Of a stretch of 64,000 bases of DNA, positions 1,185 to 42,800 are shown piece after piece (position 1 is the first letter of the stretch; each line of letters starts with the position of its first letter). The notes under the pieces are model-generated. The model saw nothing but the letters and a program-made list of their open reading frames with translations. It was not told the origin of the DNA and did no database searches. Made by a program: the position numbers and the translations under genes. This stretch comes from an uncultured Prevotella sp. Its GTDB lineage: Bacteria > Bacteroidota > Bacteroidia > Bacteroidales > Bacteroidaceae. The stretch lies in assembly GCA_945833995.1 (NCBI GenBank), contig CAMAGM010000001.1, positions 1 through 64,000 on the forward strand, given 5' to 3'.

Positions 1185-2627
1185 TTAAGTTGTGATTATT
1201 TTATATCTCCCACTAAGGTGCATGAAAGCGAAGAGGCGGACGTGGCCATCGTAGTTGTTGTAGTCGGGATTGAGACCTGTCAAAGGGTGAACGCTCTTGT
1301 GGATGAGCATATCAAATCCAATATAGTCTATCTCAGCCATATTTCCCTTGGTTAATGTTACGTTGATGTCGTTCACTCCCTTTGGAGATTCCTTTACCCT
1401 CACTCTCACGTCGCGCCACACCGACGACTTGGGAATATCAACCCTCGCCACGGTCTTTCCGCCAGCCTTTATCTCTACACTTGCTGCGGAAGCCGACTTT
1501 GCCCTCACTACGACCTCGCCGACAGCCTCACTGCCAAAATCCACATTGGCATAGTCCACCGCCGCTCCCTTCTTCGGGAAAATGGTCTTCCAACCCTCAA
1601 AGCGGTTGCCCTCATCCACAAAGGCTATCGTTGCCCCGCCAGAGATGCTGCTGTAGCGGTCTATCTGCAGTCGGTTTCGCGCGCTGCTGATGCCCACTCC
1701 ACGCAGTGTGGGCGCAACTTGCCGAATAGTGCCGTCGGCATTGAAGTAGAGTTTATCGACACGCACAGAGCGCAGCTTGTCGAAGTCCGGCGAATAGTCG
1801 TTGTGGTGGTAGAAGAGATACCATTGCCCTTTGTACTCGACGATGGAATGATGGTTTGTCCAGCAAGCCACCGGCGACTCCTCCATAATCACGCCCTTGA
1901 ACTCGAAAGGTCCCATAGGCGAGTCGCCCATGGCATATGCAAGAGTCTCAGTCGAGTCGCGCACCCATGGGAAGGTATAATAGTATTTCCCTTTGCGTTC
2001 AAAGACAAATGGTCCTTCCTTGAATCCATCCGGCAGGTTTTTCACTGGTTCGGGTTTGGAGTCGAGTTCCACCATATTATCCTTCAGCCTTGCCATCCAC
2101 ATTCCCATGCCAGCCCAATAGATATAGCTCTTTCCGTCCTTCGGGTCAACGAGTACACAAGGGTCAATACCATTGATGCCTTCAATGGGTCGCCACATTG
2201 GCATGAAGGGACCTTCGGGTCTGTCGGCTACGGCAACTCCAATGGCGAAGCCGCGATGGGTAGTGTCGCGCGGAGCGGCAGGGAAATAGAAATAGTATCG
2301 CCCGTCCTTCTCCACACAGTCGGGAGCCCACATGGCATAGGAGTCGCGACGCACCCAAGGCACTTTGTTCTGCGTTACTATAACACCGTGGTCAGTCCAG
2401 TCGGTGAGATTCTCCGACGAAAAGACATGATAGTCCTCCATTGAGAACCATTTCTTCTCCGGCTCCACAGGACTTACAATGTCATGCGAAGGATAGACAT
2501 ACATCTTTCCGTTGAACACACGAGCCGTAGGGTCGGCACTGTATTGATCGCGTATTATGGGGTTTTGCGCCATCGCTACCGATACCACAATACTTGCCAT
2601 CGACAAAAGAACTGTTCTTCTTTTCAT
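1185..2627 (-). CDS. Secreted GH43 family glycosidase with C-terminal carbohydrate-binding module
   Basis: A 480-residue exported enzyme. I chose the ATG at 2625-2627 because it begins a clean signal peptide (MKRRTVLLSMASIVVSVAMAQ); the open frame reaches back to 2696 only through repeat sequence. The five-bladed propeller shows the three GH43 acidic positions: the base in SADPTA, the pKa-modulating Asp in GIDPCV and the acid in FKEGPF. A CBM6-like beta-sandwich follows at ~340-440. GH43 members are mostly alpha-L-arabinofuranosidases, beta-xylosidases or arabinanases; side-chain or xylosyl removal from arabinoxylan fits the neighbours. It lies 93 bp downstream of the GH3 gene, separated by a repeat, and is probably transcribed from the GH3 promoter. 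Confidence 0.85.
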   Translation of the reverse strand: MKRRTVLLSMASIVVSVAMAQNPIIRDQYSADPTARVFNGKMYVYPSHDIVSPVEPEKKWFSMEDYHVFSSENLTDWTDHGVIVTQNKVPWVRRDSYAMWAPDCVEKDGRYYFYFPAAPRDTTHRGFAIGVAVADRPEGPFMPMWRPIEGINGIDPCVLVDPKDGKSYIYWAGMGMWMARLKDNMVELDSKPEPVKNLPDGFKEGPFVFERKGKYYYTFPWVRDSTETLAYAMGDSPMGPFEFKGVIMEESPVACWTNHHSIVEYKGQWYLFYHHNDYSPDFDKLRSVRVDKLYFNADGTIRQVAPTLRGVGISSARNRLQIDRYSSISGGATIAFVDEGNRFEGWKTIFPKKGAAVDYANVDFGSEAVGEVVVRAKSASAASVEIKAGGKTVARVDIPKSSVWRDVRVRVKESPKGVNDINVTLTKGNMAEIDYIGFDMLIHKSVHPLTGLNPDYNNYDGHVRLFAFMHLSGRYKIITT

Positions 2628-2641
2628 ATTCAACCTATTTA

Positions 2642-2727
2642 TATTGAAGATTGAATATTGAAGATTGAATTGCTGCGCTTTGCTATCAACCTTCAACCTT
2701 CAATCTTCAACCTTCAATCTTCAAATT
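2642..2727. repeat. Palindromic element with TTGAAGA-type arms and GCTGCGC core
   Basis: The left arm (2644-2670) repeats TTGAAGA/TTGAATA; the right arm (2688-2727) repeats CTTCAAC/CTTCAAT; the centre contains GAATTGCTGCGC. It fills the GH3-GH43 gap and supplies the TGA stop of GH3 (2721-2723). Positions 2651-2678 match 23996-24023 at 27 of 28 bases, showing a dispersed family. Confidence 0.75.
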
Positions 2728-5354
2728 TCTACCTCCAACTTCTGCAAGTCCTCAGGACGTGAACTGCTGCCTACGAATATCTCATACTTGCCGGGGACGG
2801 CACGCATAGTGTTGGTCGAAGGGTCGAAGAGAGTGAAAGCCTCCTCGTCGAGCTGGATTTCCACATTCTTTGTCTCGCCTGGCTTCAATGTCACACGCTC
2901 AAAGGCCTTGAGAGTCTTCAGCGGTCCATCGGCATCATCGCAGCGGCGAACATATACCTGAACGACCTCGGTGCCCTCGCACTTGCCGGTGTTTTTGATG
3001 ATTATAGAGGGTAGAAGGTAGAGGGTAGAGGGTAGAGATATGTTAGAGCCAGTTTTTGACGTGGATAGGTAATCTCTACCTTCTACCCTCTCACCTCTAC
3101 CTTCTATAACAATTTCAAACTTCGTGTAGCTCAACCCATAGCCGAAAGCATAGAGAGGGTCGGAGAAGTAGCGGTAGGTGCGGCCCTTCATCGAGTAGTC
3201 CTCGAAGTCTGGCAGCTGGCTGCTTGTCTTGTAGAACGTCACGGGGAGTTTGCCCTGTGGGTTGTAGTCGCCGAAGAGGACATCGGCAACGGCAGTGCCG
3301 CCTTCCTGTCCGGGATACCATGCCTGCACGATGGCAGCACAACGCTCTGCCTCGGGAGCAAGGGCTATGGCAGAGCCAGAACAGTTGACAAAGACAATCT
3401 TCTTGCCTGCCTCGGCAAGATGACGTATGAACTCACGCTGCACCTTAGGCAGTTCTATGTGTGTGCGGTCACCACCCTTGAATCCATCGATAGCCACTGG
3501 CATCTCCTCGCCTTCGAGTTGCGAGGATATACCGCCAACAAACACCACTGTCTCAATGCCCTTGAGCTTGCTTATAGTCTCTGCATAATCTATTGGCAGT
3601 TCCTCTCCGATATTCAGTTTCATATTGGCAGCCCATGTCTTCACAGTGTGATAAGCCAGTTCCACCTCATATTTCTTACCCTTCTCAACATCGAGTTCGA
3701 AGCGCATCGGTTGGTCGCGCCATGTACTGTCGGCAGCGAGAGTCTTGCCGTTCACCTTGAGCGAGAACGAACCCGTGTACTGCATACGTATAACAGCCTT
3801 GCACGACTTTTCGGGAACGAAGGTCGTTTCATAGAGAGCCGAGAAGTCTTCCATCTTCACACCGTCGGCAAAGGTATGCTGACCGTTGGTGGTCACTGCT
3901 ATCGGGTTGACATAATACTCCTTTGTGACAGGCTTTCCGCTGCGTGTGGTATTGTTCCAGAACGTTCCACGAATGCCTTTCTTGCCATCGACGGAGCACT
4001 GAGTCAGAAAACTGTTGACGACACACTCCTCAGTCAAGTCGCAACCCTTCAAATAAGTAACATTCTTCTTCCCCACTTTGGCACGAATGCCGTCGAGGAT
4101 AGTGACGGTAGAATTAGGAGTACCGTTATAATTTCCCCACATCATCGGGATATTGTCGGCGTTAGGACCGATGACGGCAATCTTCTGCTTCTTGGAAAGG
4201 GGAAGCAATTCTTCATTCTTTAGCAGCACAATGCTCTGTCTCGCCATGTCGAGTGAGAGCTGCCTGTGCTCCTTGCAGCTAAGGATAGAGGGAGAGATCT
4301 TCGACCACTCGCATGCCTCGTGAGCGTCCATCTCACCTAATTCAAAGCGGGCTTCGAGCAGGCGCACAACATGCTTGTCTATCTCCTTCTCGCTTATCAG
4401 TCCACGCTCCACAGCCTCAGGCAGTTTTGCGTAGGCATAGCCGAAACCGCACTCCACGTCGGTGCCGGCAATGACACCCTTGGCAGCTGAGTGATAGGGA
4501 GTTGACGAGGTCTTGTGGTTCATGTGGAAGTCGGCAATGGCACCACAGTCGCTCACCACCATATACTCAAATCCCCACTCGTCGCGCAGTATCTGCTGCA
4601 GCAGCTTGGTGCTTCCGCAGCAAGGCTCGTCGTCCCAACGCTGATAGGCACACATCACCTCCCTCACCTTTGCCTTCTGCACCAAGTCCTTGAAGGCGGG
4701 CATGTAGGTTTCCCAAAGGTCGCGTGGAGTTATGTCGTTGAGGTTTGCCGTATGGCGGCTCCACTCTGGTCCGCTGTGTATGGCATAGTGCTTGGCGCAA
4801 GCCAGCAGCTTCCGGTGTTTTGCCGACTCAGGTCCCTGCAGTCCGCGCACCACAGCCTGTCCCATCTGCGAAGTCAGATAAGGGTCCTCGCCGTAGGTCT
4901 CCTGTCCGCGTCCCCACCGTGGGTCGCGGAATATGTTAACGTTGGGAGTCCACACCGAGAGGCAGTGGAAACGCGTTGTGGGAACACCGTTCTGATATTG
5001 CTCGTTCCATTTCGCGCGGGTCTCGTCAGACGCTACGCTGAACACTCGCTCCACCAATGGCACGTTGAACGATGCTGCCATGCCAATAGGTTCTGGGAAG
5101 ACAGTCACGTTGCCCTGGTTGGCAAGTCCGTGCAGAGCCTCGCTCCACCAGCTGAACGGCTTTATGCCCAGTCGTGGCACGGCGGGCGACTCGTCGCACA
5201 TCAAGTCGGCCTTCTCCTGAAGAGTCAATCGACCAACAAGGTCAACTGCCCTTTCGTGGGCTGAGAGGTTGGGATTTTGGTATGGCAGTTGTTGTGCCAT
5301 CGCATAGTTTGCTGTCATCAGGACAGCAACAAAAATGGTTTTTCTAATATTCAT
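2721..5354 (-). CDS. Secreted GH3 beta-glycosidase (probable beta-xylosidase) with PA14-like insert
   Basis: An 877-residue exported enzyme. The start at 5354 gives the signal peptide MNIRKTIFVAVLMTANYAMAQ; upstream codons cross the promoter. Order: GH3 (alpha/beta)8 domain (~30-370) with nucleophile Asp269 in MVVSDCGAI; alpha/beta sandwich with KNEELLPLSKKQKIAVIGPNA; PA14-like insertion (~455-600, starting GTFWNNTTRSGKP); rest of the sandwich; C-terminal fibronectin III-like domain. GH3 enzymes of this layout release xylose or glucose from oligosaccharide ends; the xylan locus favours xylo-oligosaccharides. Residues ~749-783, in the fibronectin III region, are encoded by a palindromic repeat inserted in frame, and the stop codon lies in another repeat. 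It is first gene of a two-gene unit with GH43, under the promoter at 5381-5388. Confidence 0.88.
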   Translation of the reverse strand: MNIRKTIFVAVLMTANYAMAQQLPYQNPNLSAHERAVDLVGRLTLQEKADLMCDESPAVPRLGIKPFSWWSEALHGLANQGNVTVFPEPIGMAASFNVPLVERVFSVASDETRAKWNEQYQNGVPTTRFHCLSVWTPNVNIFRDPRWGRGQETYGEDPYLTSQMGQAVVRGLQGPESAKHRKLLACAKHYAIHSGPEWSRHTANLNDITPRDLWETYMPAFKDLVQKAKVREVMCAYQRWDDEPCCGSTKLLQQILRDEWGFEYMVVSDCGAIADFHMNHKTSSTPYHSAAKGVIAGTDVECGFGYAYAKLPEAVERGLISEKEIDKHVVRLLEARFELGEMDAHEACEWSKISPSILSCKEHRQLSLDMARQSIVLLKNEELLPLSKKQKIAVIGPNADNIPMMWGNYNGTPNSTVTILDGIRAKVGKKNVTYLKGCDLTEECVVNSFLTQCSVDGKKGIRGTFWNNTTRSGKPVTKEYYVNPIAVTTNGQHTFADGVKMEDFSALYETTFVPEKSCKAVIRMQYTGSFSLKVNGKTLAADSTWRDQPMRFELDVEKGKKYEVELAYHTVKTWAANMKLNIGEELPIDYAETISKLKGIETVVFVGGISSQLEGEEMPVAIDGFKGGDRTHIELPKVQREFIRHLAEAGKKIVFVNCSGSAIALAPEAERCAAIVQAWYPGQEGGTAVADVLFGDYNPQGKLPVTFYKTSSQLPDFEDYSMKGRTYRYFSDPLYAFGYGLSYTKFEIVIEGRGERVEGRDYLSTSKTGSNISLPSTLYLLPSIIIKNTGKCEGTEVVQVYVRRCDDADGPLKTLKAFERVTLKPGETKNVEIQLDEEAFTLFDPSTNTMRAVPGKYEIFVGSSSRPEDLQKLEVEI
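3003..3109. repeat. Palindromic repeat inside the GH3 coding sequence
   Basis: The left arm 3003-3039 repeats GGTAGAG/GGTAGAA; the right arm 3073-3109 repeats CTCTACC/TTCTACC in inverse, ~37 nt each. About 105 nt are added without breaking frame, giving a low-complexity stretch (GRGERVEGRDYLSTSKTG and beyond). AGAGATATGTTA (3034-3045) recurs at 23980-23991 in the iorB-paaK gap, linking it to the intergenic family. Confidence 0.75.
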
Positions 5355-5380
5355 AATGTTATAGCATTTAGTTATGGCGG

Positions 5381-5388
5381 CAAAGTTA
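5381..5388 (-). promoter_or_regulatory. -7 box of the GH3-GH43 unit
   Basis: The minus strand reads TAACTTTG, 26 bp before the chosen GH3 ATG, implying a leader of about 20 nt. Confidence 0.75.
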
Positions 5389-5418
5389 CTGCTTTTATTC
5401 CATACTGCCGATTCTAAT

Positions 5419-5447
5419 TGTATCAAAAACCGCCAAATATGTTACAT
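5419..5447 (-). promoter_or_regulatory. Two-box activator site, GH3 promoter
   Basis: On the coding strand ATGTAACA (5440-5447) and TTGATACA (5419-5426) form direct repeats 21 bp apart; the inner box is exactly 30 bp from the -7 box. The identical layout occurs at 11930-11958, 16049-16077 and 21368-21396. Confidence 0.75.
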
Positions 5448-5891: not shown

Positions 5892-6167
5892 TTATTTATC
5901 ATTGTAATGCCCTTCTACCTCAAGCACAATGACAGTGACGACATCGTCGTAAATGTCATATATGATTCTGTCATGGGCAGAGATGTGTCGCGACCATGTA
6001 ACGCCATTTCCACCTTTTAGGGCTTCAGGATGACCTATTCCTGAGCGGGGATTCGAGACTATTGAGTCAAGCACTTCAGTAAGCTTATGGAATCTCACTG
6101 GATTAGACTTCGCCAATTTCTTTATTGCCTTTTGGGCTGACTTCGTAAAATCGATTCTATAACTCAT
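5892..6167 (-). CDS. yoeB: YoeB/Txe-type toxin of a type II toxin-antitoxin module
   Basis: A 91-residue basic protein of RelE/YoeB-like size. The C-terminal half carries the YoeB pattern GHPEALKG..GVTWSRHISAHDRIIYDIYDD and ends GHYNDK. In this family the fold is a ribosome-dependent mRNA interferase cleaving codons in the A site, with C-terminal His/Tyr residues involved. Start at 6167 because its ATG overlaps the antitoxin TGA (ATGA, 6164-6167), typical translational coupling; five earlier in-frame codons overlap the antitoxin more deeply. Translation starts MSYRIDFTKSAQKAIKKLAK. It sits between the GH3 unit and the SusC/SusD unit, a common place for stabilising modules. Activity is inferred from family only. 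Confidence 0.8.
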   Translation of the reverse strand: MSYRIDFTKSAQKAIKKLAKSNPVRFHKLTEVLDSIVSNPRSGIGHPEALKGGNGVTWSRHISAHDRIIYDIYDDVVTVIVLEVEGHYNDK

Positions 6168-6412
6168 AGAGATGCCAACCATTTATTCATTTCTTCTTTC
6201 GTTTCGAAATGTAAGGTCTCACCTCTCAGGTATTCCTTACGTCCCTTTTCTATCTTTGCCTGCAACTCCGGCGAAATAGTCTGCTCATCGTCCTCAACAG
6301 GGACAATGGCATAAAGGCGATGCTTACGACGAATTATCACTCTTTCGCCAGCATCAACATTGTCGAATGATGCAGCCATTCTGCTACGAAAATCTCTTAT
6401 TGACAGTGCCAT
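6164..6412 (-). CDS. Phd/YefM-like antitoxin
   Basis: An 82-residue acidic protein starting MALSIRDFRSRMAASFDNVD, with GERVIIRRKHRLYAIVPV next, resembling the N-terminal DNA-binding half of Phd/YefM antitoxins. The C-terminal half (ISPELQAKIEKGRKEYLRG and a final KWLASL) would be the toxin-wrapping helix. Start at 6412 because it follows the -7-like box at 6441-6448, whereas upstream in-frame codons run through the operator and promoter. It precedes and overlaps the toxin gene. Autorepression with the toxin as co-repressor is usual in this class and fits the dyad just upstream. Confidence 0.72.
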   Translation of the reverse strand: MALSIRDFRSRMAASFDNVDAGERVIIRRKHRLYAIVPVEDDEQTISPELQAKIEKGRKEYLRGETLHFETKEEMNKWLASL

Positions 6413-6440
6413 AACATTAATTGATTTAAATTTTCTGTTG

Positions 6441-6486
6441 CGAAGATAACAACTTTTTCTGAAACCACCAAACATTATGGTGGTTT
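6441..6486 (-). promoter_or_regulatory. Toxin-antitoxin promoter and operator dyad
   Basis: The minus strand has a -7-like TATCTTCG at 6441-6448. Upstream, AAACCACC (6462-6469) and GGTGGTTT (6479-6486) form a perfect 8-bp inverted repeat with a 9-bp spacer, near the -33 position, as expected for an autoregulatory operator. Confidence 0.55.
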
Positions 6487-6510
6487 TTAACACTTGCAGA
6501 TAATAAAAAT

Positions 6511-6537
6511 TAGGCTCTGTCATCGCGACAGAGCCTA
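6511..6537 (-). terminator. Intrinsic terminator, minus strand
   Basis: TAGGCTCTGTC (6511-6521) pairs perfectly with 6527-6537 around a 5-nt loop; on the minus strand it is followed by a T-rich tract. It lies downstream of the SusD remnant and upstream of the antitoxin promoter. Confidence 0.75.
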
Positions 6538-6570: not shown

Positions 6571-6781
6571 CTAATTAAAATGAGCCTGCTTAGCCAACTG
6601 GATGTTCTCCTTGCTCTTTGCCTCGTTGCTCTCGTTTACACGAGCCTTGTAAGCCTTCCAGAGATAAGCCTCGCCAAGATAAGAGAGAGCCATACCCTTG
6701 GTACAACGGCCATACTCGTCACGGGTTAGCATCGGTATAGTCCATAGTAGGAGACATGGTAGCATAGTAACGCTGAATCCC
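6571..6781 (-). pseudogene. Fragment of a SusD-like gene, frameshifted
   Basis: Two short minus-strand frames join into one SusD-like segment. The first (from 6781) reads GIQRYYATMSPTMDYTDANP and then hits a stop; the second (to 6571) continues DEYGRCTKGMALSYLGEAYL, a clear match to the tetratricopeptide-rich core of SusD-like binding proteins. A frameshift near 6720 splits them. The N-terminus with the lipobox and the C-terminal half are absent, and the fragment ends in a stop just before the terminator at 6511-6537. This is the remnant of an extra SusD gene next to the intact SusC/SusD pair, probably left by deletion or recombination between PULs. Confidence 0.7.
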
Positions 6782-6849: not shown

Positions 6850-6929
6850 ACCAACTAAAGTTGATAAAAAACCACAGTGTATATTAAAATCAATACAGGT
6901 GATTTTATAACCAATATTCTTATTCAAGA

Positions 6930-8681
6930 CTAATTATTTGCCCAACCACGTACCTGATGCATCTGGTCGTTGACCTCGATTACAGTTTGTGGGATTGGCC
7001 AGTACTCGTTCTTGCCTTCTGTGAACGAAAGTGTGATGTTAGCCTCCTTATAAGGATGCCTTACCTCGTAAACGAGTTTATGAGGCTTTGTGCCACCTGA
7101 TGTCCAGTACTCATCAAACTGATAAGGTACGTTATCAAGAACCTTGTCCCAGCACTGCTTGGCAATACCCCAACGTACGATATCGAACCAACGGCAGCCT
7201 TCAAACCAAAGCTCATACTGCTTCTCATCCTGAATAGTCTGGAGATTTACAGAAGAAGAGATGGTCTTTGAACCGGCACGCTGCTGTATCTTATTGACAT
7301 ACTTGAGTGCCTCAGCTGTGTTACCTGACGCGAGACATGCCTCAGCATAGAGGAGGTAAGCCTCACCGAGACGTGCAAGGCAGAGGTTTGTATTGTTACA
7401 GTTATCACCAGCCACCTTGTTGGGGTCGCAATCATTAGGATGCATCATCATCTTAACCTCCATCACATCAGAGCGGGAGAATGAACCGGCATCCTTTTTG
7501 ATACCACGGTTTGGATCGAACTCCTTCTCCGCACGTGTCGAGAGAGTACCGCCTGCCTCTACATCGTTCTTCCATGGACAGAGAGTGGCGTCATAGAAGA
7601 ACTCATCGGATGTGAGGAAAGTAGCCTTACGGCGATATGAGTCACCATCGTTGGCAAGCATCTTGTGAGCAAACTCGTGGTTAATGGAGCCGCCACCCCA
7701 GCCGCCTGTTGAACAAATCTGAGGGTTCTTACCACCACCTACGATATCATCACCACGCCAGTTGAGAACGTTGGCAACCATCCAACGGCCACGTTTATTA
7801 CCGTATGCCCAGCCTGCACCAGTTGAAGCCGCAGAGTTGGCAGAAAAGTTGATTTCGAAAATCTTCTCCTCGCAGCCGTCACCCTCAACATGAAAGAGGT
7901 CGCGGAAGCGGTCACCGGGAACAAGAGCGTAGTTTGATGACTCAACGAGTGGCTTAAGCAGGCTTGCTGCCTTTGCGTTGTCGCCTGCGAAGAGAGCTGA
8001 CTTACCGGCGACAAACTGTGCGAAGCCCTTTGTTGCATACCATGCACCTTCCTGATCGCTCTGACCATTACGCTCAGGTATGTCGCTCATTGCCTCCTCA
8101 CACTCCTTTATACAGAAGTCGAAGATTGCCTTCTGTGACTCAGCATTAGTAGGTTTGTCATCAACAATGAGGTGGTCAACGATAGGCGGCTGATAGTAAA
8201 CCTGTGCGGCAAGCATGTGAGCCCATGCACGCATTACTCTTGCCTGGGCAACAGCCTCTTTCTTAACCTGTGAGTCAGCCTTGTCACCACCAAAGTAATT
8301 GATAACGAGGTTAGCTGAGTAGATTGACTTGTAAATATGGTTGTAAAGAGCACTTACAGGACCGAAGCTTGTGTCGTAGCGGAACTCACCGCACTCACGG
8401 AAACCTGAGTGGTCGGCAATATCGCCACCTGCGGGGAACACATCGTCAGAAGCGTAGTTAAGACCCATGATGTATGCATTCCAAATACCTTCATTACCAC
8501 TTATCTCTTCAGCGAATGTCGCATACATGGCAGTAACTGCAGACTTTGCATCTGCATCTGTCTTATAGAAGCTATCTGTACTGTTTGTTGCCTTCTGCTC
8601 GATTTCAAGCAAATCCTCTGAGCAAGATGTTAACGTTATTCCTGCTGAAAGTAAGGCAACAGAAAATATTATTTTTTTCAT
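6930..8681 (-). CDS. SusD/RagB-like outer-membrane glycan-binding lipoprotein
   Basis: A 583-residue lipoprotein starting MKKIIFSVALLSAGITLTSCSED, with the lipobox Cys at 20. SusD family hallmarks: an N-terminal segment DSFYKTDADAKSAVTAMYATF, the AWAHMLAAQVYYQPPIVD repeat helix, NLCLARLGEAYLLYAEACL, and a C-terminal EGCRWFDIVRWG motif. SusD proteins cap the SusC channel at the cell surface and hand it oligosaccharides; no enzyme activity. It is 35 bp downstream of its SusC partner and shares its promoter. Given the flanking GH10/GH43/GH3 and esterase genes, xylo- or arabinoxylo-oligosaccharides are the likely ligands. Confidence 0.92.
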   Translation of the reverse strand: MKKIIFSVALLSAGITLTSCSEDLLEIEQKATNSTDSFYKTDADAKSAVTAMYATFAEEISGNEGIWNAYIMGLNYASDDVFPAGGDIADHSGFRECGEFRYDTSFGPVSALYNHIYKSIYSANLVINYFGGDKADSQVKKEAVAQARVMRAWAHMLAAQVYYQPPIVDHLIVDDKPTNAESQKAIFDFCIKECEEAMSDIPERNGQSDQEGAWYATKGFAQFVAGKSALFAGDNAKAASLLKPLVESSNYALVPGDRFRDLFHVEGDGCEEKIFEINFSANSAASTGAGWAYGNKRGRWMVANVLNWRGDDIVGGGKNPQICSTGGWGGGSINHEFAHKMLANDGDSYRRKATFLTSDEFFYDATLCPWKNDVEAGGTLSTRAEKEFDPNRGIKKDAGSFSRSDVMEVKMMMHPNDCDPNKVAGDNCNNTNLCLARLGEAYLLYAEACLASGNTAEALKYVNKIQQRAGSKTISSSVNLQTIQDEKQYELWFEGCRWFDIVRWGIAKQCWDKVLDNVPYQFDEYWTSGGTKPHKLVYEVRHPYKEANITLSFTEGKNEYWPIPQTVIEVNDQMHQVRGWANN

Positions 8682-8716: not shown

Positions 8717-11700
8717 TTAGAATGTGACGCTCAAACCGAGGACGAGCTTCTTCATTGTAGGATAAACGCCCTTGTCAAGACCTGGGCAGTTATACTCCTG
8801 AGTACATGTCTCAGGATCAAGACCAGGATACTTTGTGAAGCAGAAGAAATCGTCAAGAGAGACATATGCACGTACATTCTCCATGAAAACCTTCTTTGTT
8901 ATGCTCTTGGGCAATGTGTAACCGAGCTGTATCTGCTTAATCTTGAAGAAAGCTCCGCTATATACCATTGCTGATGAGCTGTAGAACTTAAGGTCACCAT
9001 ACACACTCTTTGCCTCTGGGAACTTGCCAGACTTGAAGTCGTCATAAACACCTTTGGCTACGTTGTTGTAACCAGTACGATATAAACCGTAGTAAACATC
9101 GTTTCCTGCCTGACCTGTGCCGAATACAGTGAGGTCGAAGCCCTTATACTCTGCATTAAGAGTGATACCATATGTCACGTCAGGAATACCCGAGCCGATG
9201 TTTGTCATATCACCTTCCTGCGGGTCGTTTGTGATAGAGCCGTCTGCTGCACGATACAATGCAGTGCCATCATCCGCACGGCCTACGTAGTCATAACCAC
9301 GCATGTACCATATTGGCTCACCCTCCTCGAAGTAACAGCGGATAGCACCAGGGCTTGCACCCTCGACTGTCGCACCAGCAATACGCTCGATAGACGGGTC
9401 AAGATATGTACACTTGTTGCTGAGGAACGAAACGTTGCCGGCAATGCCATACTTGAAGTCACCGATATGATCCCTCCAAGAGAGTTCGATCTCAACACCG
9501 TTGTTCTTTACCTTGCCAGCGTTCTTTGTGATTGATGAAACACCTGACTCTGGCATGGCAGGAGCATTTACGAGAAGGTCCTTGGTTGTCTTTGTGTACC
9601 AGTCAATACCAAGAGTGAGACGGTCGTTGAGGAATCGCATGTCAAGACCGAGGTCAATCTGCTCAGATGTCTCCCATGTCAGGTTCGGGTTAGCGATACC
9701 GTTAGGCATTGAGCCGTATGTAGCTGTGTTGTCAGCGCCATACTGATACCACTGGCCATTAGTTGCGATGCCAGCAGTGTATGAGTAGTTGCTAAGCACG
9801 TTTACGTTACCATTCTGACCCCAAGAGGCACGAATCTTACCAAATGAGATGATGCTTGGGTCAATATTGTTCTTGAAGAATGATTCATTAGAGAATGTCC
9901 AGCCTGCAGATGCAGAGAAGAAATTACCCCAACGGTTGTATGAAGGAAGTTTCTCAGAAGAGAAAGCATCAGCACGGAAGTTACCCTGGAAGCTATAGCG
10001 GTTGTCATAGCTATAGGTGATACGTCCGAAGTAAGAGATTGCGCTGCTCTCACCTTTAATACCATTGATAGTCTTTGTTGTATTTGCGTTTCCGTTTACA
10101 CAATCAAGGAAACGGAAGTTAGGATCGTAAGCAGTAAGGATATCCGGACCGCTTGCTGCACCTTTGACATACTTTGACTGATAATGACGGTATGACATAC
10201 CTGCCATGGCACCAACATCATGCTTGCCGAAGCTCTGTGCATAGTTAACGAAGTTCTCCCACTGATACCAGATAGAGTTGCTGCTCTGAGCTGAGATTGA
10301 GTAGTTGTCACCCTTTGTCTGAGCATTGAGGTAATAAGGAGTGGCATAGTCCTCGTTGTTGGTGAATGAGAGACGGTAGCCGAGGCGGGAAGTGTATGTG
10401 ACATACTTAATTGGTGTGAAGTTAAGGTATGCTGTACCATTTATGTTCACACCGTCATTTGTAGCCTCTGAGCGGTCACGCTGTGAGAATGGGTTAGCAC
10501 CCGCAAGACGCTGATTGAAGTATGATGTCGCATAGTAACCGTTTGCATCACCAAAGAGAGCGTATCTTGAGTCGCCTGCCATTGCCTTGTCATAGTAAGA
10601 AGCATAATCGCCGAGCATCTGCGAGCGGTCTGTCCAATAGAGCGGAGTGAGAGGGTCGATGAGAAGAAGCATCTCGAATGAAGAGCCATAGCCGTTCTCA
10701 GAGATACTGCGTGTCTCCCACCTCTCGATAGAGTTGTTTGTACCAACTTTCAACCAGTCCTTAACCTTATAGTCTGCATTAATCTGGGCGCTGAGACGTG
10801 TGTACTTATCCTTGTCGCCCTTTACGATACCGTCCTGGTTAACATAGCTGCCACTTACGAAGTATGAACCACGGTCATTGGCACCCTCGAAGGTGATGGT
10901 ATGCTGCTGTGACCAAGAGTTCTCGAAATATGCGTCCATCCAGTCTGTATCTGTATTAGGATTCCAGTTGTACTGTTCCTTATACTGGTTCATATCTGCA
11001 TTAACCTGGTCGGTTCCGAGCTGCATGCCCATCCAGTCTTTGAACTCAGAAGCGTTGAGAAGCTTACCGACATGACCAAGTCCCTGATTTGTGAATTTGG
11101 CGGTGTAATTGATGCTGCTCTTACCCTTTTTGCCCGATTTTGTTGTAATGAGAACAACACCGTTACCAGCCTCAGCACCATAGATAGCAGCTGATGCGGC
11201 ATCCTTAAGAACCTCCATTGACTCAATCATTGAAGGATCGAGATACTGGATGCTTGATACCTGAAGACCATCGACAATGAGCAATGGACCAATATTACTT
11301 GAGTTAGATGAGTAACCGCGGACACGGATGGTAGCTCCCGAACCTGGTTTACCAGATGAGTTCAAAACCTGGACACCCGACGCCTTACCCTGAAGTGCTG
11401 AAGCGGCATCTGTTGTAGAAATACCCTTGATGTCATCGCCCTTTACCGATGCAACAGAACCGGTAAGGTCGGACTTCTTTTGGATACCGTAACCAATGAC
11501 AACAACATCATCAAGAGTTGTGTCCTCTGGCTTAAGAACAATAGTCAAATCCTTTGTCCCCTTAACACTCACTTTTTCCGTTCCATATCCTATATAAGAT
11601 ATAGACAACTGTGCATCTGGGGTTGCATTCACTTGAAAATGACCATTCAAGTCAGTTACTACACCAGTGTTTGTACCAAGTACTTTCACTGTAGCTCCAA

Positions 11701-11827
11701 TGACTGGGTCGCCATTCTCATCATTTACTGTTCCCTTTACTATGTTCTGAGCCAAAGCTCCCAAAGGAAGCAAACAGAACAGGAACAATAGCACTAGTGG
11801 CTTTTGTAACTTTTTCACAATTCTCAT
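8717..11827 (-). CDS. SusC-like TonB-dependent oligosaccharide transporter (xylan PUL)
   Basis: A 1036-residue outer-membrane protein. Start at 11827 (MRIVKKLQKPLVLLFLF) gives a signal peptide ending near GALAQ; four upstream codons are also open. Order: carboxypeptidase-regulatory-like domain (~28-105, NDENGDPVIGATVKVLGTN), a short linker with DDVVVIGYGIQKKSDLTGS, plug domain (~115-235, with SAAIYGAEAGNGVVLITTK), then a 22-strand barrel ending LGLSVTF. SusC proteins import oligosaccharides into the periplasm with TonB energy. It heads a two-gene unit with SusD; the promoter at 11892-11899 carries the two-box site shared with the xylanase genes, tying it to the xylan regulon. Ligand is inferred. 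Confidence 0.93.
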   Translation of the reverse strand: MRIVKKLQKPLVLLFLFCLLPLGALAQNIVKGTVNDENGDPVIGATVKVLGTNTGVVTDLNGHFQVNATPDAQLSISYIGYGTEKVSVKGTKDLTIVLKPEDTTLDDVVVIGYGIQKKSDLTGSVASVKGDDIKGISTTDAASALQGKASGVQVLNSSGKPGSGATIRVRGYSSNSSNIGPLLIVDGLQVSSIQYLDPSMIESMEVLKDAASAAIYGAEAGNGVVLITTKSGKKGKSSINYTAKFTNQGLGHVGKLLNASEFKDWMGMQLGTDQVNADMNQYKEQYNWNPNTDTDWMDAYFENSWSQQHTITFEGANDRGSYFVSGSYVNQDGIVKGDKDKYTRLSAQINADYKVKDWLKVGTNNSIERWETRSISENGYGSSFEMLLLIDPLTPLYWTDRSQMLGDYASYYDKAMAGDSRYALFGDANGYYATSYFNQRLAGANPFSQRDRSEATNDGVNINGTAYLNFTPIKYVTYTSRLGYRLSFTNNEDYATPYYLNAQTKGDNYSISAQSSNSIWYQWENFVNYAQSFGKHDVGAMAGMSYRHYQSKYVKGAASGPDILTAYDPNFRFLDCVNGNANTTKTINGIKGESSAISYFGRITYSYDNRYSFQGNFRADAFSSEKLPSYNRWGNFFSASAGWTFSNESFFKNNIDPSIISFGKIRASWGQNGNVNVLSNYSYTAGIATNGQWYQYGADNTATYGSMPNGIANPNLTWETSEQIDLGLDMRFLNDRLTLGIDWYTKTTKDLLVNAPAMPESGVSSITKNAGKVKNNGVEIELSWRDHIGDFKYGIAGNVSFLSNKCTYLDPSIERIAGATVEGASPGAIRCYFEEGEPIWYMRGYDYVGRADDGTALYRAADGSITNDPQEGDMTNIGSGIPDVTYGITLNAEYKGFDLTVFGTGQAGNDVYYGLYRTGYNNVAKGVYDDFKSGKFPEAKSVYGDLKFYSSSAMVYSGAFFKIKQIQLGYTLPKSITKKVFMENVRAYVSLDDFFCFTKYPGLDPETCTQEYNCPGLDKGVYPTMKKLVLGLSVTF

Positions 11828-11891
11828 AGATTGTAGCAAATTATTAATAAATAGGTTTTAAACTTATCTGACTTTTCGTTAAAAATCTGTG

Positions 11892-12062: not shown

Positions 12063-14618
<2,556 letters not shown>

Positions 14619-14629
<11 letters not shown>

Positions 14630-15983
14630 TAGCTTCCCACCAGTCGAAGTTGAAGAGGTTCTTCTTCTGCATTGAAGTGCTCTTGAACACGAAATAGACA
14701 TCGTGCACACCTTTGCATTTTGTTAGCTCCGTGCGGAAGGTCTCGTATTTGAACTTCGTGTTTGGAACGTCGATTTCTCCTGCCTTCCAGCCATCGGGTG
14801 CGTCGAGACGTATTTCTATCTTTCCGCCAAGCAACAGGGAAGAGCAACTTGCCTTCAGTTCCTTGGCGCCACTGCCAAAGTCAACGCCCTTGACAAGGAT
14901 GTATTCGCCATCGTCGATATCCGTGACAAAGAGCGTGGGATTCCACGGACCTGAAGGATTCTCGCGTGTAGTCTTAAGTCCATATCCCCAAGCCATGGTC
15001 TCTGCCTCAACACGGCGGTATGGATTGAATGTTCCCACCTGCTCCATTTTGCAGTCGAGGAAATAAGGCAGTTCCTGTATTGTGCCATCAGCATTGTAGG
15101 TCATCTCGGCAGCCGACACTGAGCGGCGTTCGGCATGGCGGCTTGTCTCCAGTCGGAAGATGTCGTAGTTAAGTCCGAAGCAATACCATTTGCCCTTATA
15201 CTCGATGATACCGGGATGATTGCCTCGTGTGCGTGGAGTGTGGTCCATGATATGCCCCTTATGCTCCCACGGTCCGATGGGCGACTTGCTCATGGCATAG
15301 CCAATACCCTCGGGACAGCAAGTTGACGCGTAAGCGAGATAATACCATTTCTCGCCACGGGCATTCTTCCTCGACCAGAACCAAGGGCCTTCCTGATAGT
15401 CGCCTATGGGGTCCATCTGCATGATGTCGCCCTTGATGGAAATCATATCCTCGTTGAGTCGCACGCAATATGTGTGGGGATTGCCCCAATACATATAAGC
15501 CTGTCCGTCGTCGTCAATCCACACTGTCGGGTCGATGTCATACCAATGCTCCTGTCGCCACACGAGCGGTTTGCCAAGCGGGTCTTTGAATGGACCAAAG
15601 GGCGAGTCGGCAACGAGCACACCGATACCATTGCCGTGTATCGGGCAATACATATACCACTTGCCGTTGCGCTCAATCACCTGTTCTGCCCATGCTCCGT
15701 TGTTTCCCTTATACCAAGTGAAATCCTTAAGCGAAGCCACCGCTCCATGATCCTGCCAGTTGACCATGTCGGTAGAGGTATAGAGCAACCAGTCTTTCAT
15801 CTTGAATCCCTCAGAATCATCCTCGTCGTGGGTGGTATAGAGATATACGGTATCTCCATGCACATAGGGTGCTGGGTCTGCCGTGTATTTGGTTTGGATA
15901 ATCGGCAGATTGAAGTTTTGTTTCTGTTGTGCCGCTGCCGACATTGTGGCAGCAAGCATAATGCTTAATGTGAGTAGCCTCAT
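14619..15983 (-). CDS. Secreted GH43 glycosidase with CBM6-like domain
   Basis: A 454-residue enzyme. Start at 15983 gives signal peptide MRLLTLSIMLAATMSAAAQ and follows the -7 box at 16011-16018. The propeller (~25-320) has TADPAPYVHGD, DIDPTVWIDDD and YQEGPWF carrying the catalytic base, modulator and acid. A CBM6-like beta-sandwich follows (~330-454: [16 protein letters not shown] at its start, NFDWWE at its end). Its propeller closely resembles the one in the downstream GH43-esterase, suggesting tandem duplication followed by esterase gain. Likely arabinofuranosidase or beta-xylosidase on arabinoxylan. It heads a two-gene unit controlled by the shared two-box site. Confidence 0.87.
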
Positions 15984-16010
15984 CTTTATTGTCGTTATTG
16001 ATTTCGTCTG

Positions 16011-16018
16011 CAAAATTA
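16011..16018 (-). promoter_or_regulatory. -7 box of the GH43 / GH43-esterase unit
   Basis: The minus strand reads TAATTTTG, 27 bp before the GH43 ATG. Confidence 0.72.
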
Positions 16019-16048
16019 CGGATTTTTTCCCATACATAACTTTAAAAT

Positions 16049-16077
16049 CGTCTCATATACATTCGGAAATGTTACAT
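16049..16077 (-). promoter_or_regulatory. Two-box activator site, GH43 promoter
   Basis: Coding-strand ATGTAACA (16070-16077) and the weaker ATGAGACG (16049-16056), 21 bp apart, inner box 30 bp from the -7 box. The inner box matches ATGATACA at 6 of 8 positions. Confidence 0.7.
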
Positions 16078-16232
16078 TACTGATTTTTCCACCTTTTATT
16101 ATAAACGAATGGGAAAATGCAAAAAATATTCAGGGACTGGCACATTGACACTCAGTAGAGAATCAATATACCACTCCCTGTTGTTTACCAACCCCCAGTG
16201 GCTTATTGGCGTTGGATATTAGCGTCAGAAGC

Positions 16233-18938
16233 CTAAGGGAGTTTTGTCTCTGGCATGCCTGCCTCCTTCTGGAAGAAGTTGACCATTCGCTGGAACGTGT
16301 TGTCGTTGAAGGTCACGGGACCATGGTTGCCACCAGGCACGGTGATGAAGTCCTCAAGCACACCTTTGTCCTTCAAGGCCTTGGCAAAGAACTCGCTCTG
16401 GCAATAAGGCACCACGGAGTCGGCATCGCCATGGATGACAAGGACCTTTGGGTCTTTCTTGTCGATATACGACATTGGGCTCAGCGACTTTGTCAGGTCG
16501 GGATTCTTCGACGGACTGCATCCCAACAGTACAGCCTCTGGAGAGTTGTCGTCCTTGTAAGTCTCGCAACGCTCCATGCGGCTCATGTCGATAGGTCCGA
16601 AGAAGTCAACCACGGCATCCACCTTGCTGCTCTCCTTGGTATAGTCGCCAAGCGAGCCCTCGATATCCACCTCCACCTTGCCAAACTTCTTGGTCTTCAC
16701 GCCATTGGTCGTACCGGCAAGTGAGGACAGATGACCGCCGGATGAAAAGCCGGTGATTCCCACAAACGAAGTGTCAAAACCATACTTGGCTGCGTTGCCG
16801 CGAACAAAACGTATTGCTGCCTTCACGTCGTTAATCTGCGAGGGGAACTTAGCTTCGGTGCTTGCCCTGTGGTTGATGCTCACCACGGCGAAGCCTCCGT
16901 CGAGCAACTGCTTGCCGTAAGACTGGAACGCTATTGCCTTGGCGTTGTTGCTAAACCATGCACTGCCATAGATGAGTACTATCACCTTATGGCTGTCCTT
17001 GCCGTCGTCTGGCACGTGAATGTCCATCTTGTGCCCCTCAATGCCGTCGCCAACATAGTCAACGTCCGTCCATGTCTTTTCTGTCTTTGCGGAAGCCGCC
17101 AAAGGCTTCTTTACGCCAAGGATATTGAGCATTGTCTCTGCATAGCGCTTTCCGAGGATGCGATAACCCTCTGCAGAGAAATGGAACTTGTCGATGCCAT
17201 TGCCTGGGCATCCCTCTGACGATATCACATGGGCATTGGGGATGATGTTTGGCAGTGTGGCGATGTTGCTGTTCTGTCCCCAGCACGCTCCTCCGTTCTC
17301 CTCTCTCAGCATCTCGCCCACCAACAGGGGAACATCTTCGGGAGAAAGGTTAAGCTCATTGAGAATACGCTCATAAACCGTCTTCACCATTACAGGCCAC
17401 TGCGGATTGCCGTTGTCGGTCTCGCCTTGGTGCATCAGTATTCCCTTTATGACACCATGCATCTGAGCCTTCTTTGCCACCTCCACAAGGCGACGGAACG
17501 GATTGTTGTCGTAGTTTGCCATAATGTTCTTGAACCAGTCCGCCTCGCCTGCAATATAGACTTCACAGGAATCCTCCATAAAGCCCTTTATGCTCGTGCC
17601 GCCAATGGCGACATGCACAACGCCAACCTTCACGTTCTCGGGCAGGTTCTCACACATGGTGCGACCGAAATAGTCGGCTGGTGTCAGTCCCGTGCCCTGA
17701 CGGCAGATTGGTGGAACGGCAGTGTACCACTTGCCCGTCTCGCGCTTTGGGTTGCTGTAGTTCACGGCAGCCATCACCTTGAATCTCTCAGGCACATTCT
17801 CATAGTCCTGAGCCTCTGCCCTTGCATTGCCTTCCATGTTCGACTGTCCGAAGCATAGGTAAATGTGGAAGTTTGGGTCGGCAGTCTCTGGCACACCAAT
17901 CCACTGCGACAGTGCTGCGGTGATGTTCTTCAGCTTTTCTGTCTCGGCTGGATAGGCATCGGCATTAACCGTTGTGAGAGCCTCGGCGGCAGCCACTGCT
18001 TCCTTTAAGGCGATGCGTGCTGTCAACGCCTCATTGCGTGTGACATCTTTGGCAGCCTCAAGTGTCTCCTTGGCGTCCTTTATAGCCATGAGGAAGTTGT
18101 CCTTATAGATCTTGCTCTTCTCAGGCAAGGAGTATTTGCTTACAAACGCCCATATTTCCTCGCTCGTCATCACTCCTGCGGGGTCGTTGCTGTGGAAGTG
18201 TCCCTTTGCGTCGAGAGTGTTCAGCACCACCTCCACACCGCCGTCTCCTGCCTCCCAAGTAGTGCGCGAGCACTTTGAGTCGGGCTTGTCCGTTGGCCAC
18301 GGCGTTACTGTGGTGGAAGAGCTCTTGCATCTATTATGCGCTGCCCATGCCCCTACTGTTGACATGACATTATCGTATTTCACCACGTCATCCACATTTC
18401 CGTGAGTATGTATAAGAGGTATGGGACGCGAGCTGCACAATGGGTCGCCCCACATCAGATAGCCGCTGACAGGAGCGAAGGCAGCAAACTTGTCGTCCAT
18501 GTAGTTGGCGCAGAAGTATGTCATCATGCCACCCATGGAGAATCCGGAGAGATAGACCCTCTTGGTGTCTATCTTGTATCGTGCCGCCATAGCGTCGATT
18601 ATCGCGCTTAGGAATTGCATGTCCTTGTTGTCAGGAAGTGAAGTGTTTCTGATATCCCAAAACTTGTTGATGCCGTTAGGATAGACAACAACGAATTTTT
18701 CCCTTTTTGCGATGGCTTCCCAATTTGCCATCCCCTGCTGATAGGGTGCATCCTGGTTCATGCCGTGCATCGAAATGAGCAGAGGCGCGTTCTTCGGCAG
18801 GTTTGAAGGGGCATAGACAAGCATGTTTCTTTGCGTACCGCCAACAGAGAGGTCTTCCGATATCGCCTTGTCTAATGCGTTCACTCTAAAGAGTACGCCA
18901 CACAGAAGTGTAAATATAATGATTAGTCGATTTTTCAT
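16233..18938 (-). CDS. Triple carbohydrate esterase: CE1/PHB-depolymerase-like + CE6-like + alpha/beta-hydrolase
   Basis: A 901-residue exported protein (MKNRLIIIFTLLCGVLFRVNA) with three hydrolase domains. Residues ~25-275 are PHB-depolymerase/CE1-like, nucleophile Ser134 in SGFSMGGMM. A helical linker (~285-345) follows. Residues ~350-610 are CE6/sialate-O-acetylesterase-like, Ser366 in FGQSNMEG with later HFSAEGYRILG. Residues ~625-901 are an alpha/beta-hydrolase of the BD-FAE / acetylxylan-feruloyl type, Ser732 in TGFSSGGH, Asp in HGDADSVVPY and His in GGNHG. All three nucleophiles are intact. Removing acetyl and feruloyl groups from xylan in one protein is the sensible role; exact specificities are inferred. 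It lies 136 bp downstream of the GH10 gene and is probably its co-transcribed partner. Confidence 0.85.
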   Translation of the reverse strand: MKNRLIIIFTLLCGVLFRVNALDKAISEDLSVGGTQRNMLVYAPSNLPKNAPLLISMHGMNQDAPYQQGMANWEAIAKREKFVVVYPNGINKFWDIRNTSLPDNKDMQFLSAIIDAMAARYKIDTKRVYLSGFSMGGMMTYFCANYMDDKFAAFAPVSGYLMWGDPLCSSRPIPLIHTHGNVDDVVKYDNVMSTVGAWAAHNRCKSSSTTVTPWPTDKPDSKCSRTTWEAGDGGVEVVLNTLDAKGHFHSNDPAGVMTSEEIWAFVSKYSLPEKSKIYKDNFLMAIKDAKETLEAAKDVTRNEALTARIALKEAVAAAEALTTVNADAYPAETEKLKNITAALSQWIGVPETADPNFHIYLCFGQSNMEGNARAEAQDYENVPERFKVMAAVNYSNPKRETGKWYTAVPPICRQGTGLTPADYFGRTMCENLPENVKVGVVHVAIGGTSIKGFMEDSCEVYIAGEADWFKNIMANYDNNPFRRLVEVAKKAQMHGVIKGILMHQGETDNGNPQWPVMVKTVYERILNELNLSPEDVPLLVGEMLREENGGACWGQNSNIATLPNIIPNAHVISSEGCPGNGIDKFHFSAEGYRILGKRYAETMLNILGVKKPLAASAKTEKTWTDVDYVGDGIEGHKMDIHVPDDGKDSHKVIVLIYGSAWFSNNAKAIAFQSYGKQLLDGGFAVVSINHRASTEAKFPSQINDVKAAIRFVRGNAAKYGFDTSFVGITGFSSGGHLSSLAGTTNGVKTKKFGKVEVDIEGSLGDYTKESSKVDAVVDFFGPIDMSRMERCETYKDDNSPEAVLLGCSPSKNPDLTKSLSPMSYIDKKDPKVLVIHGDADSVVPYCQSEFFAKALKDKGVLEDFITVPGGNHGPVTFNDNTFQRMVNFFQKEAGMPETKLP

Positions 18939-18951
18939 ATTAATATTTTTT

Positions 18952-19066
18952 TAGTTGACAAGTTTACGAGTTGACAAGTAAACAAGTTGTTTGTTATGCC
19001 ATTTTGACTATAGCACTATCAACTCGTCAACTTGTCAACTCCTATACTTGTCACCTCGTCAACTGA
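18952..19066. repeat. Palindromic element with GTTGACAA-type arms
   Basis: The left arm (18952-18988) repeats AGTTGACAAGT-like units; the right arm (19017-19066) carries the inverse ACTTGTCAACT-like units; ~28 bp centre. It fills the gap between the GH10 and triple-esterase genes. Architecture as in the other elements, different arm sequence. Confidence 0.65.
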
Positions 19067-19074
19067 GCAATAAA

Positions 19075-21396
<2,322 letters not shown>

Positions 21397-39741: not shown

Positions 39742-39790
39742 AACATAGGGAAAAGTCAGAAAACATAGGTGAGGTGTGGTTTTTTATTTG

Positions 39791-39798
39791 TAACTTTG
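39791..39798 (+). promoter_or_regulatory. -7 box of the PL11 fusion gene
   Basis: TAACTTTG, 23 bp before the ATG at 39822; the preceding TTTTTTATTTG may supply part of the -33 region. Confidence 0.65.
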
Positions 39799-39821
39799 CC
39801 CACATAAAACTAAAAACGATT

Positions 39822-42800
39822 ATGAGCAAACTAACTTACATTCTGTCAGCAATGCTGGCTTGCGGCATTTCCTTGACATCGCCAGCCTTTGGCGGCAATG
39901 TGCGGAATGTCAACTTAGAGAAACTTGACAGGGGCGTGGTGGCTTTGCCTGCACAAGGGAAAGGCGTGTTCGTCAGTTGGAGACTACTGGCTGACGACGA
40001 CTCCAATGCGACATTCATGGTGGTGAGGGACGGAACGGTGATAGCCCGCAACATCGACGTGACGAACTTCACCGACAAGGACGGAAAGGCTACGAGCCGC
40101 TACCGCATCGTGACCCAACAGCGGGGACGCGAGGAGGTATCGGAAGAGGCAACGCCTTGGAACGACATCTATCACAGGATGGCAGTCAACCGACCGGACG
40201 GTGGGACGACACCCGACGGCAAGCCCTACCACTACACGCCAAACGACTGCAGCGTGGGCGATGTTGACGGCGACGGGAAGTATGAGCTGATATTGAAGTG
40301 GGACCCATCGAACGCACACGACAACGCACACGACGGATATACCGGCAACGTGATTCTCGACTGCTACAGGCTTGACGGACAACAGCTGTGGCGCATCGAC
40401 CTCGGAAGGAACATACGCGCTGGGGCACACTACACGCAGTTCCTCGTCTATGACTTCGACGGCGACGGCAAGGCAGAGATGATCTGCAAGACCGCACCAG
40501 GAGCCATCGACGGCAAGGGACGATTCGTGACAGAGGCTGCCACCGACGAGGGAATACGACGTGCAGACAACCAAGCCGACCACCGCAACGCGAAGGGCAG
40601 AATACTGACCGGCGAGGAGATGCTGACCGTGTTCAACGGAATGACTGGCGAGGCAATGCATACCATATGGTACAATCCCAACCGTGGCTACGGACTGGGC
40701 GGCAGTGCCGAATATGCGGGTTGGGGCGACAAGACGACGCTTGGCAACCGTGGCGAGCGCTTCCTTGCCTGCGTGGCATTCCTCGACGGAATGGACAAGA
40801 AGCCAAGCGCAGTGATGTGCCGCGGCTACTACACGCGGTCTTACCTCTGGGCAGTGGACTTCGACGGCAAGCGGTTGCAGACGAAGTGGCTGCACGCATC
40901 ACTATCGGACAGCGAGTGGCAAGTGACCGACGGAGGCGGAAACATAACGAGCCAAAAGAAGGGACTGAAAGCCACCGCTTTCGGACAAGGAGCGCACAGC
41001 ATTGCCGTGGCAGACGTTGACGGCGACGGCTGCGACGAGATAACCTACGGCTCGGCGGCAATAGACCACGACGGCTCGCTGCTCTACTCCACCGGACTTG
41101 GACACGGCGACGCGCAACACCTTGGCGACCTCGTGCCAAGCCGTCCGGGACTGGAATACTATATGGTGCATGAGGCACGACCATACGGTGCCGACCTGCG
41201 CGACGCACGCACTGGAGAAATACTTTGGAGCGAGACCGCCGACGAGGACACAGGAAGGGGAATGGCAGCCGACATAGACGCTGCACACGAGGGCAGCGAG
41301 ATGTGGCACATCTGCCGCAACGCCATTCTCGACAGCAAGGGGAACATGATTTCAGAGGCAATGCCACCGATGAACTTCCGCATCTATTGGGACGGCGACC
41401 TCCAGGACGAGCTTCTGGGCAACCTGAAGACCCGTCCGCACTTCCCACCATGCCTCTACAAATGGAACGGCAGTGACGTGGAGCCACTACCACTGAGCAA
41501 CGGCAAGATGCTGCACGAGATGGGCAACTCGGCAAGCTGCAACTGGACCAAGGCAACACCAAACCTCCAGGCAGACATCTTCGGCGACTGGCGCGAGGAA
41601 CTGATATTCTGGGACTCATCAGACGCGTCACACCTCAACATATTCACAACAAACACTCCGACAGAGCACCGCATACCCACACTGATGCACGACCATGTGT
41701 ATAGAATGGGAGTGGCATGGCAAAACGTGACATACAACCAGCCGCCACACCTCGGACGCACTCCTGACGACTACGAGAAAGCGGCAAGGGGCGACGTGGG
41801 ACAACAGGAAAGGAAGCGCAACTACTACGCAGAAGGCAGGGAACTCGTGTGCCACAATGGCAACAACCGCTACACACGGGCACTCTATGGGACACACGAC
41901 CCTTTCAGACTTGAGACCTCCGACCGACCATTGTTCGCCACATTCAAGAAAGGGGAGTGCCGCAACCTCAGCATCTATGCCATCATAGGCAATGAGAGGG
42001 TTGCGCTCGACTCGACATATTTCGACTGCGAGGCACGCTATCTCGGCGGACGACGCACCTACACGCTGCGCCATGGGCAGCTGCAAATAGACATCACGGC
42101 AATGGCTTCGTTCATAGGCGACGAGGACGCAATATGGCAATTCAAGACCACAGGGCAAGACATCGAGCTGGAGGCTGTGCTTGCCGAAACGCGAAGCAGC
42201 AAGTTCCAACGCAACGGCGACCTCGGAGTGGACGACCTATCGAAGTTTGAGGCGAAGACCGGCACTCCGCCCATTGCCACAGCGAGATGGGACGGACACG
42301 GCGAGACCTATCTCCTTATGAAAGGGAACAAAGAACTGAGGGCCACCCCCAGCCCCTCCCTGGGGAGGGGGGAAGGATATGCGGGAGTCAAGGATAGGTT
42401 TGCTGAGGAGGAAAAATTGAGGACTGAAATAATGTCGAGGGTGGAGATAACCACCCCCGACTCTTTGTTTAATACCCTCGGCAGTGTGCTTATGGCTGCT
42501 GCCGACGGACTATGGGACGGCGAGACATGGCAGCACGGCTGCATCGGTTGGCGAATGCCATTGGCTGGCTGGCGAGGCTGCTATGTTGGCGACGCAGTGG
42601 GCTGGGGCGACCGTTCCTACCGCCACTTCCAAGCCTACGCACGCAGCCAGGTGAGGAACGTGCCACCTACCCTACCCCACCCCACACAAGACAGCACGCA
42701 GAACATGGCAAGGGCAGAGAAACGTTGGGGAACGCAGATGTATAGCAACGGCTACATCTGCCGCTATCCCGACCGCACCGACGTGATGCACCACTACGAC

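Follow-up and report, generated by a model that had tools for sequence, protein, structure and literature searches.

A predicted secreted xylan esterase with three catalytic modules in a Prevotella-type arabinoxylan PUL, probably formed by gene fusion

Fll4 was presented as the first enzyme to combine three distinct CE domains; it shows acetyl and feruloyl esterase activities, and one of its three modules had no detectable activity on the substrates tested (PMC12247016). Nine CE6-CE1-CE1 proteins from PULDB have also been mentioned (PMC8040265). For the two-module protein BoCE6-CE1, synergy from the fusion was found on corn cob, and no such advantage was found for FjCE6-CE1 on beechwood (PMC7110780). 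The CE6 enzymes characterised so far are exclusively acetyl xylan esterases (PMC8040265), BD-FAE acts on natural xylans, from which it frees both ferulic acid and acetate (PMC8165983), and Bi1040-FAE/BeGH43-FAE is a broad feruloyl esterase (PMC7815789). Here we describe a reading frame that combines a PHB-depolymerase/CE1-like module (M1), a CE6/SASA module (M2) and a BD-FAE-type module (M3).

The window, which is the whole stretch of 64,000 nucleotides analysed here (contig CAMAGM010000001.1 of an uncultured, gut-type Prevotella sp.), contains a xylan PUL. The genes on its minus strand are ordered GH10-CE1 (19075..21351), the tri-esterase ORF (16233..18938), GH43-CBM6 (14619..16037), GH43-CBM6-CE1 (12063..14540), a SusC-like TonB-dependent transporter (8717..11839), a SusD-like glycan-binding lipoprotein (6930..8681), a GH3 protein with a PA14 insertion that is a probable beta-xylosidase (2721..5426), and a second GH43-CBM6 (1185..2696); an AraC-type regulator lies at 268-1128. 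The glycoside hydrolases were assigned with Pfam, and GH10-CE1 and GH43-CBM6-CE1 with NCBIfam as well. GH10-CE1, directly upstream of the tri-esterase, scored 1193 bits, just below the cut-off of 1200, over 694/694 profile positions of Xylase_Ferestase (NF041944), the NCBIfam model of the bifunctional endo-xylanase/feruloyl esterase (GH10/feruloyl esterase). The preliminary description had placed the ORF next to a GH10-CE1 and a GH43-CE1, and CE1 domains were indeed recognised on the GH10 protein and, two genes downstream of the tri-esterase, on the GH43-CBM6 protein. It had also claimed at least five esterase domains in about 9 kb, and we counted five within 12063-21351 (9.3 kb).

Some other features of the window were recorded. 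Two small overlapping ORFs between the GH3 and SusD genes (5892-6523, minus strand) resemble by eye a YefM/YoeB-type toxin-antitoxin pair, and a 64-aa ORF (6571-6765, minus strand) looks by eye like a SusD fragment, perhaps the remnant of a second SusD gene. GH10-CE1 and the tri-esterase are separated by 137 bp, and this gap contains an inverted repeat (18953-19056) with 22-nt arms that are 95% complementary, built from units of about 8 nt, AGTTGACA/AGTTGACG. The 22-nt pattern occurs at 70 places in the window's genome (allowing 2 mismatches or fewer) and at none in a reversed control; it is dispersed and hairpin-like, with several facing pairs 60-100 bp apart. Elsewhere on the contig, a 1659-aa protein (39774-44753, plus strand) carries rhamnogalacturonan lyase family 11 domains and likely belongs to a separate pectin locus.

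The tri-esterase ORF runs without interruption for 901 codons from 18938 to 16233 on the minus strand, and domain searches, with scores far beyond chance, resolved the 901-aa product into M1, a helical linker (LK), M2 and M3. The N-terminal stretch MKNRLIIIFTLLCGVLFRVNA (aa 1-21; 18876..18938, minus strand) was judged by eye to be signal-peptide-like, and a homologous leader is present in two related loci (L138 and L052); the polypeptide is probably secreted and periplasmic. A full-length structure model was too weak to reveal the domain arrangement (pLDDT 64.3, pTM 0.39). Pairwise dN/dS was 0.06-0.14 per module, which indicates overall constraint, with time before and after the fusion mixed. 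The domain matches support the earlier proposal of three esterase modules in one polypeptide; the modules come from different families, their triads are intact, and the predicted secreted protein belongs to a xylan PUL. The nucleophiles named in the proposal (Ser134, Ser366 and Ser732) were positioned exactly, and the full triads are complete and invariant among homologues. The three modules had further been called unrelated folds, which is incorrect: M1 and M3 both match alpha/beta-hydrolases, in structure matches and by identity to PDB entries, so the three families represent two folds, with M2 being an SGNH hydrolase.

M3 (aa ~621-897; 16248..17078, minus strand) matched PF20434 (BD-FAE) at aa 638-855 with an E-value of 1.2e-79 and 267 bits against a cut-off of 26.8, covering profile positions 1-215 of 215. 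With the esterase half of the Bacteroides eggerthii GH43-CE protein (6mly) it shares 64-65% identity, and with BD-FAE (6tkx/6xyc) 55%. The triad S732/D840/H872, invariant in 36/36 homologues, aligns with S128/D237/H269 of BD-FAE and S634/D742/H774 of BeGH43/FAE (PMC7815789). M3 is very likely a feruloyl/acetyl xylan esterase. M2 (aa ~350-610; 17109..17891, minus strand) matched PF03629 (SASA) at aa 357-604 (E 6e-31, 108 bits, profile positions 2-225 of 226). Its triad S366/D583/H586 was invariant in all 99 homologues, with the catalytic Ser in GQSNMEG and a C-terminal DxxH, as in CE6/SASA proteins; M2 is very likely an acetyl xylan esterase. Between M1 and M2 lies LK (aa 273-346; 17901..18122, minus strand), recognised by the helices in the structure model and by alignment with relatives. 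In the relatives, a CBM4/9-like domain of about 150 aa stands between M1 and LK; it is absent from the window ORF.

M1 (aa ~26-272; 18123..18863, minus strand) scored 173.6 bits, above the cut-off of 150, over aa 33-265 against NF050058, the NCBIfam model of PHB depolymerase (extracellular type 1). In Pfam it matched Esterase_PHB (26.4 against a cut-off of 23) and Abhydrolase_2. Modelled with homologues, M1 gave a confident alpha/beta-hydrolase (pLDDT 84.7), and the best Foldseek match was AoAXEB of Aspergillus oryzae (9j07; E 1e-18, 25% identity). Among solved proteins, those nearest to M1, at 16-25% identity, comprise one acetyl xylan esterase along with PHB depolymerases and feruloyl esterases. 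The triad is S134/D183/H247. M1 is most likely a further acetyl xylan or feruloyl esterase, with a specificity that is not readable from the sequence. We consider it unlikely that M1 is degenerate or differently directed (PHB/carboxylester-like or structural), with the protein functionally a CE6-FAE bifunctional enzyme. That reading would fit the match to the PHB depolymerase model and the PHB depolymerases among the nearest PDB relatives, as well as the close relatives at L005, L037, L135 and L141, which possess CBM-LK-M2 without M1. Fll4 provides a precedent, with one inactive module in three (PMC12247016), and intact nucleophiles are thus no guarantee of three working activities. However, the M1 triad is invariant in 23/23 homologues and pairwise dN/dS of M1 is 0.08 (a value that covers time before and after the fusion); moreover, M1 is widely paired with M2 among rumen Bacteroidaceae, and the PDB entry that matches M1 best is an acetyl xylan esterase.

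The preliminary description had proposed a search for the same domain order in other genomes. No single ORF with M1, M2 and M3 was found in genus samples of 150 and 398 genomes or in 399 family and 393 order genomes (~1,340 look-ups), and the architecture was not present among the 80 best GTDB loci. A spanning match in G397, containing one stop, proved to consist of an M3-CE1 gene and, preceding it, an unrelated glycosyltransferase reading frame, and a partly spanning match in G608 was a CE6-CE1 protein.

In close relatives, M1-CBM-linker-M2 and M3 are separate genes of the same kind of PUL. The former was found in L134 (genome G130) and L138 (G015), and likewise, with more insertions, in L052. 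A free-standing M3 gene is present in L033 (G130; 92% identical) and in L008 (G021), in the latter directly after GH10-CE1. M3-CBM48-CE1, in which CBM48 was labelled by sequence resemblance without a Pfam match, was found in L034, L137, L140 and L136, often adjoining GH43-CBM6. M1-M2 is common in more distant rumen Bacteroidaceae (L035-L051), with M1 identity of 33-38%; L090 has M3 joined to GH43, and in a Prevotella (L104) a BD-FAE gene begins 20 bp beyond CE6-CE1. Fusions of BD-FAE to GH97 glycoside hydrolases were seen as well (L139:6193-8889 and L133:2844-5510). In the M1 tree, the window grouped with L134 and L138 (99/94). In the M3 tree, it grouped with L033/L004 and L008 (100/100), the closest being L008 by topology and L004 by distance.

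Based on alignment with the separate genes, the M2-M3 junction was delimited to aa 611-620, the KKPLAASAKTE region (17079..17108, minus strand). DNA homology to separate M1-M2 genes stops at ~17119-17135 and that to separate M3 genes begins at 17075-17089; these breaks coincide with domain boundaries. Relative to the separate genes, the fusion is missing the C-terminal tail of M2 (~45 aa, with no Pfam match in the relatives) and the signal peptide of M3, and KKPLAASAKTE corresponds in the alignment to the last part of M3 leaders. Only a very short linker separates M2 from M3; it contains an Ala-Ser-Ala motif like a signal peptidase site, perhaps left from the M3 signal peptide. Proteolytic cleavage has been suspected for one esterase polypeptide of a B. 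intestinalis PUL (PMC7815789). The fused protein might likewise be cleaved after export into separate esterases, and the fusion would then provide co-production but not intramolecular synergy. This appears improbable: the motif is distant from the hydrophobic leader, and such a motif is normally no signal peptidase substrate.

The fusion is known from a single MAG assembly (84.9% complete, 216 contigs). A MAG of so many contigs, the absence of the fusion from the other sampled genomes of the genus, family and order, and the occurrence of both parts as separate genes in relatives could all be expected if assembly had artificially joined two esterase genes, whether from the same genome or from two. 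We regard such an artefact as very improbable. M2 and M3 meet in frame at the border between domains, and missing are the M3 signal peptide and the M2 stop, which a random misjoin would be expected to retain; GC content is similar on either side. M1 and M3 each occur once in the window genome, which has, besides the M2 of the fusion, a single distant M2; L008 has its M3 gene at the matching position, right after GH10-CE1. A real fusion is much more likely; it is probably a one-off fusion of well-known enzyme types and appears to be lineage-specific.

The end of the ORF bears on the history of its M3 part. The 3' end, with the TAG stop at 16233..16235 (minus strand), reads CTC CCT TAG GCT TCT G in the window and likewise in L033, whereas L034 reads CTA CCG AAG GCT TCT G and its protein continues into a second esterase half. 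The M3-ending stop codon is thus common to the tri-esterase and the free-standing M3 of L033, and it is derived. M3 of L008 ends a few codons later, in a different sequence. Downstream of the free-standing M3 in L033, a degraded stretch (6868-7000; SGVEIPYPAEKQSRYELNADVPHGQVARLRYKSK) was recognised as a remnant of the second esterase half of L034. For the origin of the fusion, we infer an order of events in which the M3 partner gene had earlier lost its CBM48-CE1 half, an M1-CBM-linker-M2 gene within the PUL lost the CBM and the C-terminal tail, and the tail-less M1-linker-M2 would have been fused in frame with the portion of the M3 gene that encodes the mature protein.

On sequence grounds, we consider it likely that the ORF, part of an arabinoxylan PUL of a Prevotella-type bacterium, encodes a secreted enzyme that removes ester groups from xylan at several catalytic sites and was formed by a lineage-specific fusion. 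M1, M2 and M3 would each work through their own Ser-Asp-His triad. M2 would remove acetyl groups from xylose residues, M3 would free arabinose side chains of ferulic acid and also release some acetate, and M1 would act as an additional acetyl xylan or feruloyl esterase. The fusion may hold these complementary activities together on oligosaccharides made by GH10-CE1 and imported via SusC/D, and the GH43 and GH3 enzymes would finish the breakdown after de-esterification. The activities on real xylan, the location and the advantage of fusion are what we infer from the modules and the locus. The fused form of BoCE6-CE1 performed better than a mix on corn cob (PMC7110780), which suggests a plausible reason for fusion. 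It is conceivable, though doubtful, that the three sites cooperate on densely acetylated and feruloylated xylan with an activity beyond that of the relatives' separate proteins.

Why Bacteroidota fuse carbohydrate esterases can be studied here as a natural experiment: the three modules are separate in sister species (G130, G021 and G015) and in one chain here, so that fused and mixed activities are directly comparable. The tri-esterase may also serve as a single-protein debranching reagent for grass xylan. The interest of the fusion is modest rather than fundamental.

Among known systems, Fll4 of Flavimarina sp. Hel_I_48 (CE6-CE1a-CE1b; PMC12247016) resembles the tri-esterase in having three CE6 and alpha/beta-hydrolase esterase domains in one arabinoxylan-PUL polypeptide. 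It differs in having CE6 first, two CE1-annotated domains and a central CBM48-like domain, in having neither a BD-FAE domain nor an N-terminal PHB-like module, and in that one of its domains is inactive; the window ORF, in the order M1-CE6-BD-FAE and with no CBM48 match in Pfam, is not of the Fll4 type. The CE6-CE1-CE1 proteins of PULDB are likewise tri-catalytic esterases in Bacteroidota PULs, but all carry CBM48, have another domain set and order, and were uncharacterised at that date (PMC8040265). BoCE6-CE1, FjCE6-CE1 (PMC7110780) and Bi1038-CE6/CE1 (PMC7815789) are CE6 proteins of xylan PULs fused to CE1, with acetyl and feruloyl esterase activity; unlike the tri-esterase, they have two modules, with CE6 first and without BD-FAE.

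BD-FAE (6tkx/6xyc, PMC8165983), BeGH43/FAE (6mly) and Bi1040-FAE (PMC7815789) match M3 in triad and are 55-65% identical to it, but they are stand-alone or GH43-fused and not fused to CE1 or CE6. AoAXEB (9j07/9j08), which among solved proteins matches M1 best in both structure and sequence, is a fungal single-domain enzyme with an identity too low to transfer specificity. In Runella slithyformis, CE6/SASA is joined to an alpha/beta-hydrolase esterase in a GH43 locus (WP_013921688.1), the partner here being a full COesterase domain; the 786-aa fusion lies in a GH43/GH127 locus on plasmid pRUNSL01 (L144:2947-5307). Emticicia oligotrophica has SASA and BD-FAE genes 3 bp apart in a GH43 locus, but as separate genes and with a distant BD-FAE homologue. 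The combination and order M1-CE6-BD-FAE was not found in the literature searched. Bi- and tri-catalytic esterases are already known, and the combination and order in the window represent a new variation on these.
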